Shown here piece after piece: positions 6,461 to 24,200 of a stretch of 37,236 bases of DNA. Every line of letters starts with the position of its first letter. The stretch's first letter is position 1. The position numbers and the translations under genes are program-made. The stretch is from assembly GCA_027024255.1 (NCBI GenBank), contig JALVSQ010000022.1, positions 1 to 37,236 of the forward strand. The letters are read 5' to 3'. The DNA is from Microcaldota archaeon (lineage in GTDB: Archaea > Micrarchaeota > Micrarchaeia > Anstonellales > J096). The notes under the pieces are model-generated. The model was not told the origin of the DNA. It did no database searches and was given only the letters and a program-made list of their open reading frames with translations.

Positions 6461-6482
6461 CTCTCTTTTTTATCAAAACATT

Positions 6483-6490
6483 TTTAATAA
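6483..6490 (+). promoter_or_regulatory. TATA-like element upstream of the C/D box RNA and trm1
   Basis: tttaataa about 21-28 nt upstream of the C box at 6511. Confidence 0.4.
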
Positions 6491-6510: not shown

Positions 6511-6559
6511 GTGATGATGCGAGGTATTTCTGAACAATGATGAAAAGAGGGTATGCTGA
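6511..6559 (+). ncRNA. C/D box guide sRNA (box-to-box core; termini not determined)
   Basis: C box GTGATGA 6511-6517; 12-nt guide TGCGAGGTATTT 6518-6529; D' CTGA 6530-6533; spacer ACA; C' ATGATGA 6537-6543; 12-nt guide AAAGAGGGTATG 6544-6555; D box CTGA 6556-6559. Confidence 0.85.
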
Positions 6560-7638
6560 TGGAAGAGAAAGCCATTGAGTTTAATGTTGAAGGAGTTTTT
6601 TACAACAAGCATATGGAACTAAGCAGGGATATAAGCTCTTTAATTGTTGGAAGCATTGAATCAAAGCTGAACATACTTGACGGATTTTGTGCCTCAGGCA
6701 TAAGAGGCATTAGATACTATGTAGAGAATAGCAATGTTGAAGGGATAACATTTGTTGATATAAGCAGGGAGGCAATAAAGAGGGCTGAAGAAAATGCCAG
6801 GAAAAACAATGTTGAGTTTAGCCTGCATGAAGGAGATATTCTAAATTACTTGCTTAAAGAGAGAAAACACAACTTCATAGAACTTGACCCCTTTGGAAGC
6901 CCTTCATTTTACATAAGGTATGCAATTCATGCCTTAAAGGATTATAAAAGAGCCTATTTATCAGCAACAGCAACAGATACTGCTGTGCTCTGTGGAAAGC
7001 ATAAGGAGGCATGCTTAAAATACTACGGAGCCAAACCGTTGAGAAACTATTTCTGCCATGAAACAGGATTAAGGATTCTCATTTATCATATTCAAAGGGA
7101 AGCATTTCACCACCACTTTTTAGTAAAGCCCCTGGTTTCATTCTACTACAGGCACCAGATGAAGGTTATCGTTGAGCTTGTAAAAGGAGCAAAATTGAGC
7201 AACAGAGCATTAAAAAACATAGGATTTGTTTGCTGGAACAAAGAGACATTTGAAACATGCTTCAATGATGTTTATTTACAATGTAATTGTGGTGAGTATG
7301 CAGGACCTTTATGGATAGGAAGCCTGCATGATGATGAAGTTGTGAAGAAAGCGTTAAAAAAAGCAGAGAAAAGAGGATGGAAAAAGGCAGGGAAAATGCT
7401 TAGCTTATTCCTGGAAGAGAACCACATGCCTCCTTATTTCTTTTCAATACATGCCCTTGGGAAATTGCTTAAGATTAAACAACTGCCAAAAGTTAGTGAT
7501 GTGATTAAAAAGGCAGAAGAGCAGGGAGTTAATATGACAAGAACTCATTTCTCTGGAGATGGAGTAAAGACAGAAAGGATAGATGAGCTGGTTTCAGTAC
7601 TTAAACATATGCGCCAGGGAGGGGATTCGAACCCCTAA
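6553..7638 (+). CDS. trm1: tRNA (guanine(26)-N2)-dimethyltransferase, Trm1 family
   Basis: NILDGFCASGIRGIRY SAM-binding motif, IELDPFGSPSFY, LSATATDTAVLCG, Cys cluster CNCG; overall Trm1 architecture. Confidence 0.95.
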   Translation: MLMEEKAIEFNVEGVFYNKHMELSRDISSLIVGSIESKLNILDGFCASGIRGIRYYVENSNVEGITFVDISREAIKRAEENARKNNVEFSLHEGDILNYLLKERKHNFIELDPFGSPSFYIRYAIHALKDYKRAYLSATATDTAVLCGKHKEACLKYYGAKPLRNYFCHETGLRILIYHIQREAFHHHFLVKPLVSFYYRHQMKVIVELVKGAKLSNRALKNIGFVCWNKETFETCFNDVYLQCNCGEYAGPLWIGSLHDDEVVKKALKKAEKRGWKKAGKMLSLFLEENHMPPYFFSIHALGKLLKIKQLPKVSDVIKKAEEQGVNMTRTHFSGDGVKTERIDELVSVLKHMRQGGDSNP

Positions 7639-7695
7639 GCCCTTGCGGGCACCGGATCTCAAGTCCGGCGCGTTACCTGGTTCCGCCACCCTGGC
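7612..7695 (-). tRNA. tRNA-Ser (anticodon UGA)
   Basis: Minus strand GCCAGGG TG GCG..CGC G CCGGA CTTGAGA TCCGG, long variable arm GCCC-GCAA-GGGC, T-arm AGGGG TTCGAAT CCCCT, acceptor CCCTGGC, discriminator G; class II tRNA, no encoded CCA. AT-rich TATA-like ttttaaa about 28 nt upstream. Confidence 0.95.
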
Positions 7696-21200: not shown

Positions 21201-24200
21201 AAGAAAGGTATGAGGAAGCGTTTAGAAAGAAGTACGGGAAGGCTCTGAAAAGACTCATGAAAGGGTATGAAAGTGGCAGGATCTTTGACTTTGAAAACCC
21301 AGAGGTATTAAACAAGATGGCAGAGAGTTTAAAGATAGGATTCGTTCACAACATGTATGTAGAGGTTTCGTACGGAGGTAAGGTTCACCGCTACATACTG
21401 AGGAGCGGTGATGGAGAGATATTTGCAATTACTAAAAAGGGAGAGGTTGTGTTCCCCAGAGTAGAGGGAGGAGGTGAAGGTGCGGAGACAGTTGCAAGAG
21501 CGAGTCATTATATATATGGGTCAGAAGTTGATCCTCTAGAACATCCCCTCCATAACCTTGATGCAATAAGAGAAGGAAGAAAGAGATTTAAGAAGCTCAG
21601 GTTGGGCGACACAGTAGGGGATATTAAAAAGGGGAATATTGAAGATTATTGGAACATCTACGAAATTCCAGAGAATGCTGAATTCGTTGTCTTTGGCAGT
21701 GATGGCATACTTGATCTGTACGAGTTTGCTAGGTCAGAAGGAATGGTGGGAAGTTATCAGGAATTTTTGAAGAGACTTGCCGCAGATAGGGGATTCAGGA
21801 ATGAACTGATTGAAAAAATTAGGAAGTCAGGGCTAAAACATGATGATATTTCACTTGTTATAATGAAGGTGGGTGAGAAGACCCCGTCATCTGTTATAAG
21901 AATAGGCCCTGAGCCGTTGGGTCCAGAAAAAGCTGGAAAACCAGAAGGCAAGGCAGAGAAGGCTAAGCCACCTGAAGAAAAACCACCACAAGAAAAACCA
22001 CCTGAAGAAAAAGTCAGAAGTGACAAGGAGTTCATTAACTTAGATAAGTTAAATGCTGAAAATATAGATAGGGAGGAAATTGGAGGAGTTATTTATACCA
22101 CTCCAGAAGGAGAGCAAATCAGGGTGAATATAGAGAGCATAAGGAAGTATCTGAGCGAGGATGTGCTGAGGGCTTATAAAGGAGAAAAAGGTTTCAATGA
22201 AGAGGTATTCAGGGAGCATCTTCCCTTCTCAGAAGAAATAAAGAATGTGATAGTTAAGATTGCTAAAGAGAGAGCACAAAAACTTAAATCTATCAATATG
22301 GAAGAGATTCTTTCGGAGAAGGTAAATAATGGAACGCTTACAGATGTTGCCCGGGAATTTGCAGGATTTAATAAAGAAGGTGAGAAGGTCAGGCCTTCAA
22401 ATCGTTTAAAAGAAGGATATAATTGGGTCAGGCAGAAGCTTGGAAAGAAGCCGGTGGATATAACTAATTTGAAAGGAGAGCAGAAGAATTTCATTGACAA
22501 CTTTTTAAAAGCAGCTAAAACACCCGGAGAACATCCAGAGGCTTATACAGTGAAAATAGGAGAAGAAACCTATGCATTGATAAATGAGGACCTTTTCCTC
22601 AATGCATTGAGATTTAATCCAAGAGATGGAGCAATAAGGGCATGGATAGAAAGAGGCCTGCCTTTAACATATGAGGAGTTCCTCCACAGGCTGGGTCTTT
22701 TAGGAAAGGACTTCAAAAAGGTCCTTATAATAAGGAAAAGGATAGGTTTGAGAAGGAGGTTTGATGTTGTTGAAATCACCAATTTAAAGTCTCTCTACTA
22801 CAAGTTAAGAGAAATCTCTTCAAGAGCGTTCAAGGTAGAAGGGAAGAAAGTAACTGTTGTTAGTGAAGAAGCGCTTAAAGAGATTAAAATGCCTGAGTGG
22901 ATGAAGAAGAAGACAATAAAAGTGCTTCAAGATGCTTTAAGGGAAAGGTCGTTTAGAAAGCTCTTAAAGAAAGCAAAGAAAATAGAGGAAAAATTGAAGA
23001 AAAGGCTGGAAGGAGAGATTCCTGAAGATGAGCTAAAGAAGGTAAAACCGGGTGAAATAGTCACAATAAGAAGGAAAGGATTGATTAAAGGAAAGAAGAT
23101 TCAGGCAGCCCATATAGAAGACTTTGTTAAAGACTTCGAAAGCATAAACTCAGGAAAGGACTTGAACAACTTCATGGAGAAGTATGGCTCTGTTGATGTT
23201 ATTGTTTATAAAGATGCACAGGGAAACATGCGTTACTTTGAGATTTATGGAAAAGAAGACCTGAGGAAGGTTGTGCTCGAACTGGATAATGTTAAAGGCA
23301 TTAATGATAAAAATAAAGGAATGTATATTGCCAGATTGAAAAACATAATGCCTGAGGATAAAGCTAAAGCAATAGCAAATAAAGTTGAAAAACTGGTGAA
23401 TGAGAAAGTGATAAAACCATCAAAAACACTCAGGGAACTTCCCAGGATAATAGGAGAAGAAGGGGAGCTTAATCTTGGAGACCAATTAATAGAGAGGCTT
23501 CAAAACCATGAGGTTGTTGAATTCAACGGAAATAGGTACATGCTTGCCGATGATTTTGTTGATATGATGTTTGCATACGAAAATCCAGTGGAGATGATCA
23601 AAGCCTTGGAAGCTAAAGGAAAACTGCCCAACTACCTTGTTTACGGTGAAGGCAAAACCCCCAAGGTTGTTAAAATAGAGCCTAACACCCTTATAGAAAA
23701 GCTTGTTCCTGGTATTGCGAACGATGCTATTTTATGGGAAGATATAGAGTTATTTGTAAAGCCCAGGAAATTTACACTAAAGCCCAAGAAGTTTATAAAC
23801 TGGGTGAAAAGACCTTTTGCAAGGAAGCTGGTTTTTGATGCAGAGGAGTATGCAAGATACTTAATCCACAGGTATAAAATACCAAGAGAACTGGCAGAAT
23901 CAATTGCAGCCCATACAAAGGTAAGGATGGATGCTGTTCTTGATGTAGCAAACATGAGAAGAGAGTTCCTTCCCAGAATGAAGGAAGTAAATGAAGGAAT
24001 GGCAGAGCTTAGAAAGATAGCAACCACGGAAGAAGGATTAAAAGAAGTACGTGAAGGAGTTTACTCCTTTAGAAAGCCACCTGAGAATGCTGAGGTTTAC
24101 AGGGTGGCCATTGCTCTTGATAAAAGCGGAGCAGAAGCAATAAGAGATGTGGTTAGGTGGCTCAAGAAAAAGGAAATACCATTTGAGCTCCATACAAATC

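Follow-up and report, generated by a model that had tools for sequence, protein, structure and literature searches.

A probable dual-guide C/D box sRNA packed against the start codon of trm1 in a small archaeal genome

Introduction

A reading of the DNA sequence alone had placed a C/D box guide sRNA at positions 6511 to 6559 of the 37,236-nucleotide stretch analysed here (the window), with its 3′ end running into the start codon of trm1, the gene for a tRNA (guanine-N2) dimethyltransferase. Such an arrangement raises the question of whether the guide RNA and Trm1 are coupled in their expression, or whether two unrelated genes have come to lie against each other in a compact genome. The window is contig C22 of a source genome of 874,647 bases in 52 contigs, which is ~91% complete. 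Here, we examine the anatomy of the putative sRNA, its junction with trm1, the targets of its two guides and its conservation among relatives, and we weigh a regulatory link against simple packing.

Results

Anatomy of the sRNA

In full, the element reads GTGATGA-TGCGAGGTATTT-CTGA-ACA-ATGATGA-AAAGAGGGTATG-CTGA at 6511–6559, and is made up of the following parts:

6511..6559, + strand: C/D box guide sRNA, from box C to box D (read directly, with a shuffle test)
6511..6517, + strand: C box GUGAUGA (DNA GTGATGA), read directly
6518..6529, + strand: D′ guide UGCGAGGUAUUU, pairing with AAUACCUCGC of 23S rRNA; predicted 2′-O-methylation of A1940 (E. coli numbering)
6530..6533, + strand: D′ box CUGA, read directly
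6534..6536, + strand: D′–C′ spacer ACA, 3 nt, read directly
6537..6543, + strand: C′ box AUGAUGA, read directly
6544..6555, + strand: D guide AAAGAGGGUAUG, pairing with ACCCUCUU in spliced 23S rRNA; predicted 2′-O-methylation of C1920
6556..6559, + strand: D box CUGA, whose final A also opens the probable trm1 start codon

Direct reading bore out the anatomy first proposed, namely RUGAUGA C and C′ boxes, CUGA D and D′ boxes, two 12-nt guides and a 3-nt spacer. With up to three mismatches permitted, the complete C/D pattern occurs once in the window, and it appeared in none of 100 dinucleotide shuffles at the same tolerance. Judged by its sequence, 6511–6559 has the make-up of an archaeal C/D box sRNA. 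No Rfam family matched it at the gathering threshold. By inspection, the flanks of 6511 and 6559 show no clear complementarity for a terminal stem, a structure for which minimum-energy folding is a poor guide, as it cannot model K-turns. The source genome carries genes for fibrillarin (PF01269, 2.2e-86) and L7Ae (PF01248, 2.0e-29); Nop5 was not among the three long open reading frames around the fibrillarin gene.

The C and D boxes hold ATG- and TGA-like words, which are common around the starts and stops of genes. One reading would have the boxes arise by chance between genes and at a start codon, with no functional RNA produced. The shuffles speak against this, as do the conservation of the guide across the order, against a control count of zero, and the matching rRNA targets (both described below), and we consider that this explanation has almost no chance of being correct.

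The junction with trm1

Three features define the junction of the sRNA with the downstream gene:

6559..7638, + strand: trm1, tRNA (guanine-N2) dimethyltransferase (PF02005, E 9.6e-79)
6547..6550, + strand: GAGG, possible Shine-Dalgarno sequence of trm1, 8 nt before ATG 6559 and within the D guide
6481..6490, + strand: TATA-like element TTTTTAATAA, about 28–31 nt 5′ of the C box

The overlap between the sRNA and the trm1 start is real and narrower than first drawn. The N-termini of Trm1 from relatives align with the second ATG (6559) and not with the first (6553, within the D guide), which makes 6559 the most likely start codon. The D box and this probable start share one nucleotide, the A of ATG 6559; the overlap would be larger if the mature RNA extends beyond the D box. 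The 3′ end of 16S rRNA carries CCUCC, and GAGG at 6547–6550 can pair with its CCUC. This segment of the D guide may therefore double as the trm1 ribosome-binding site.

The TATA consensus is matched at six of seven positions between −31 and −28 relative to the C box, and in 19 of the 32 upstream regions of C/D sRNAs that we compared, the best TATA match likewise lies near −30/−35. No TATA-like element is apparent close upstream of 6559. The element at 6481–6490 probably drives both the sRNA and trm1; the simplest reading of the sequence is a single promoter, with the sRNA as the opening 50 nt of its transcript. On such a transcript, processing of the sRNA would remove the trm1 start, as had been proposed, and the likely Shine-Dalgarno sequence with it; this part of the earlier claim stands as an argument from geometry.

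At its other end, the trm1 frame extends 28 nt (7611–7638) into the convergent gene for tRNA-Ser(UGA) (7611–7695, minus strand), and the last codons of Trm1 are therefore read from the strand opposite the 3′ end of the tRNA. RNA genes thus overlap trm1 at both ends.

Predicted pairing of the D′ guide with 23S rRNA at A1940

Complementarity of the guides to the organism's own rRNA or tRNA had been named as a means of checking the sRNA. We searched the 16S rRNA, the 23S rRNA and 42 tRNAs of the source genome, and both guides have a match in 23S rRNA, of 10 bp for the D′ guide and 8 bp for the D guide. The fifth nucleotides given earlier as the predicted targets, an A for D′ and a C for D, had been computed correctly.

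The D′ guide forms 10 contiguous Watson-Crick pairs with AATACCTCGC of 23S rRNA, a match equalled by 5 of 1000 shuffled guides, and is predicted to direct the 2′-O-methylation of A1940. This nucleotide was assigned by counting five from the D′ box, in an E. coli numbering set by hand on the conserved GGUAGCG motif, m5U1939 and C1920. At the eleventh pair, two genomes (G001 and G008) have a U in 23S rRNA matched by an A in the guide, in place of C and G respectively, a compensatory difference between genera. The two guides of the sRNA resemble each other because their rRNA target segments, AUACCUC and ACCCUC, are alike.

Predicted pairing of the D guide with 23S rRNA across an intron junction

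Against unspliced rRNA, the D guide finds only 7-bp matches, which is chance level. No good match exists in the rRNA as encoded because an intron splits the site: the intron-free 23S genes of relatives read CTGACCCTCTTAAGGTAGCGTAATACCTCG, whereas the source genome carries an insert after GACCCT.

G000:C43 about 21932–22643 (L005 2452–3163), − strand: 712-nt 23S insert at L1923, from comparison with relatives

The insert encodes a LAGLIDADG_1 protein (2.4e-21) and, by inspection, could form a helix resembling P1 of group I introns between its 5′ end and the 5′ exon (GACCCU/GGGGGUC). It fits the group I model only weakly (E 0.0036, below the Rfam gathering score). The 23S genes of G023, G018 and other genomes also have inserts at or near L1923, a reported insertion site of archaeal group I introns (PMC6125680).

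In the spliced 23S rRNA, positions 4–11 of the D guide form eight Watson-Crick pairs with ACCCTCTT, positions 2 and 3 being mismatched, and C1920 is predicted to be 2′-O-methylated by this guide. This is the only 8-bp match, and against all rRNA and tRNA it is not significant (194 of 1000 shuffles reach 8 bp). An 8-bp match this near the D′ target, within about 60–70 nt, is unusual, being found in 41 of 5000 shuffles; the D site lies 20 nt upstream of the D′ site in 23S rRNA. In another family, the guides of G023 and G047 pair with the same 23S site through nine Watson-Crick pairs and a G-U pair.

The target itself varies between clades. Within the order, all 26 genomes whose site is uninterrupted read GACCCTC; elsewhere in the class, 19 of 26 genomes read GACTCTC. 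The matching guide sequence for the latter, GAGAGTC, is present in at least 21 sRNAs of other archaeal contigs. This suggests that guide and target agree (GAGGG/CCCUC versus GAGAG/CUCUC), at the level of clades only. For some of the GAGAGTC sRNAs, the fifth nucleotide would fall on U1921 and not on C1920.

The calculated energy of the D duplex is −13.3 kcal/mol with the spliced rRNA versus −11.3 kcal/mol at the unspliced 5′ junction, which still pairs because the first base of the intron is identical to the first base of the next exon. These models suggest that splicing strengthens the pairing of the D guide and is not strictly required for it. A guide across an rRNA intron junction is the least familiar detail of the locus, and it makes the order of splicing versus methylation testable. 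A literature search found no report of a C/D guide spanning such a junction; the search was thin, so it tests novelty only weakly.

Conservation of the guides

The pattern C box-GAGGTATT-D′ box was found in 26 of the 84 genomes of the order, with none for the control; at least one of these 26 places (L099) is without a second half and looks like chance. Among the matches listed for public genome contigs, many come from (Candidatus) Micrarchaeota and some from Marsarchaeota, with a complete C′/D half too, and bacterial contigs are also included, as expected by chance. Most of the archaeal contigs listed with this guide bear the name Candidatus Micrarchaeota, and the source organism is probably of that group. 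On this distribution, the D′ guide is a widespread guide family and no coincidence of a start codon. The D guide AAGAGGGU is also present in G023, G047 and G051, where no gene begins at the D box. The g2 genomes carry a decayed D guide.

These observations bear on the idea that the D half is no real guide, its sequence being kept or shaped by the Shine-Dalgarno sequence and start of trm1 while the D′ guide alone works. The two mismatches and the frequency of 8-bp matches among shuffled guides would fit this idea, and orphan guides at gene overlaps have been described (PMC7994747). Yet the D guide persists in genomes where it meets no gene start, relatives' guides pair with the same 23S site, and that site lies close to the D′ target. 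We therefore regard an orphan D guide as unlikely, and treat both halves of the sRNA as probable rRNA guides.

The sRNA and trm1 in relatives

The most far-reaching claim of the sequence-only reading was that the overlap links 2′-O-methylation of rRNA or tRNA to Trm1. As a selected cis switch, the locus would produce either guide RNA or Trm1, never both from one molecule; alternatively, L7Ae on the K-turn would hide the Shine-Dalgarno sequence and start codon. Trm1 would in this way track the supply of sRNP. The D box does touch ATG 6559, and GAGG does lie within the D guide. Furthermore, L7Ae represses its own mRNA via a K-turn in the 5′ UTR (PMC5539422), and 5′ overlaps reduce the expression of a downstream reporter (PMC7994747).

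The comparison with relatives points the other way. At 29 other trm1 loci, none had such an sRNA in the flanks examined; this comparison covers genomes outside the source genus. Conservation of the overlap between box and start had been proposed as a check, and its absence at these loci, where the trm1 start is retained, counts against regulation, not against the sRNA. In other genera, the orthologous sRNA precedes unrelated genes; in several f8 genomes, for example, it precedes a gene for a VTT-domain membrane protein. A search for fusions of a D box with a Shine-Dalgarno sequence over the order gave at least 36 places, mostly without upstream C and D′ boxes, and few of them count.

At three loci of genus g2 (L107, L108 and L109, in G009, G001 and G008), the ATG of a conserved gene lies 9 nt after the orthologous sRNA, and the D box is merged with the Shine-Dalgarno sequence (CTGAGGTGA). 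The one product of this gene that was searched had no Pfam match.

Other C/D sRNAs of the source genome

A genome-wide search with the C/D pattern returned 10 matches, against none for a reversed control pattern. Of these, seven represent canonical sRNAs that share this geometry, two merely shift the register at places already counted, and one falls within a coding gene. Four of the seven canonical sRNAs are within ~20 nt of a same-strand start codon, the genes being unrelated, which again argues against a switch particular to trm1; the remaining three end a few bases from a convergent stop codon.

A different C/D sRNA immediately precedes the Hsp20 gene of two genera in the family (L038, G000:C2:51025-51072, and L268 in G005), and at the G005 locus the D box continues into the Shine-Dalgarno sequence. 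Unlike the trm1 case, the Hsp20–sRNA linkage is conserved, and it may be the better candidate for a leader function. The D guides of two further sRNAs strongly match the anticodon regions of tRNAs: that of L039 (G000:C3) by 11 bp in a tRNA with CCA (Trp-like), and that of L041 (G000:C15) by 10 bp and a G-U pair in a tRNA with CAA (Leu-like).

Because other sRNAs in the source genome are similarly packed and the trm1 junction is not conserved at the 29 related loci, the overlap is best read as packing. By analogy with other overlaps, a cis cost to trm1 expression is plausible, but an unavoidable cis effect is no evidence of selection for it. The sequence comparisons leave a dedicated regulatory circuit, or selected coupling with trm1, unsupported, and we judge the switch improbable; the proposed link between 2′-O-methylation and Trm1 was not upheld.

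Discussion

The element at 6511–6559 is very probably an ordinary dual-guide rRNA sRNA that forms the 5′ leader of trm1 through lineage-specific compact packing, with no conserved regulatory link. In this scheme, a TATA promoter about 30 nt 5′ of the C box would transcribe the sRNA and probably trm1 too. Assembly of the sRNP and trimming of its ends would free the sRNA, destroying the trm1 start on that molecule, while unassembled read-through molecules would be translated from ATG 6559. The sRNA would direct L7Ae, Nop5 and fibrillarin to 23S A1940 by its D′ guide and, by its D guide, to C1920 by the helix-69 bridge. With the guide gene packed against trm1, some loss of trm1 expression in cis would be possible.

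A bolder reading would give the 49-nt element three roles, as a 23S guide, as the Shine-Dalgarno sequence and start of trm1, and as a guide for the L1923 junction. Methylation of C1920 would then occur preferentially after splicing, each transcript would become either guide RNA or Trm1 message, and leader sRNAs would be recurrent. We think this combination quite unlikely. If it were true, this archaeal family would repeatedly use C/D sRNAs as 5′ leaders that control genes in cis, their D box fused with the Shine-Dalgarno sequence.

Under the packing interpretation, the locus is a clear example from a small-genome archaeon in which both rRNA targets of a guide RNA can be read. However tempting, a link between the methylation of rRNA and that of tRNA is here probably positional only. 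If the either/or fate of the transcript does carry a cost, the locus would offer a clean natural test of sRNP assembly versus translation on one transcript.

Comparison with known systems

The locus resembles the autoregulatory K-turn of L7Ae (PMC5539422) in having a putative K-turn-forming element near the Shine-Dalgarno sequence and start codon of an mRNA. It differs in that the element is a complete guide sRNA, trm1 is not a gene for a C/D core protein, and the linkage is not conserved. The 712-nt insert shares its position, a LAGLIDADG open reading frame and a P1-like pairing with archaeal LSU group I introns at 1923 (PMC6125680), but its match to the group I model falls below the Rfam gathering score.

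According to PMC7994747, 5′ overlaps with open reading frames affect about 7% of archaeal C/D sRNA genes, a minority arrangement, and most of the start codons fall within the guide or 3′ of the D box. The trm1 locus is like these genes (Tripp et al., 2017, cited through PMC7994747) in the start codon at the D box or guide, the close packing and the potential reduction of downstream expression. It differs in that its sRNA appears to own a TATA element and in that a guide may double as a Shine-Dalgarno sequence. The 5′ start overlap itself is a known arrangement.

With archaeal C/D sRNAs in general (PMC4644070, PMC7994747), the element shares the box sequences, the 12-nt guides and the short D′–C′ spacer. 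It also shares two guides directed at nearby 23S sites, which is usual for dual guides, in a known methylation hotspot, helices 68–71 of 23S domain IV (PMC7994747). Nothing essential sets it apart from this class, to which its sequence assigns it; here, an intron divides the D target, which becomes complete only after splicing.
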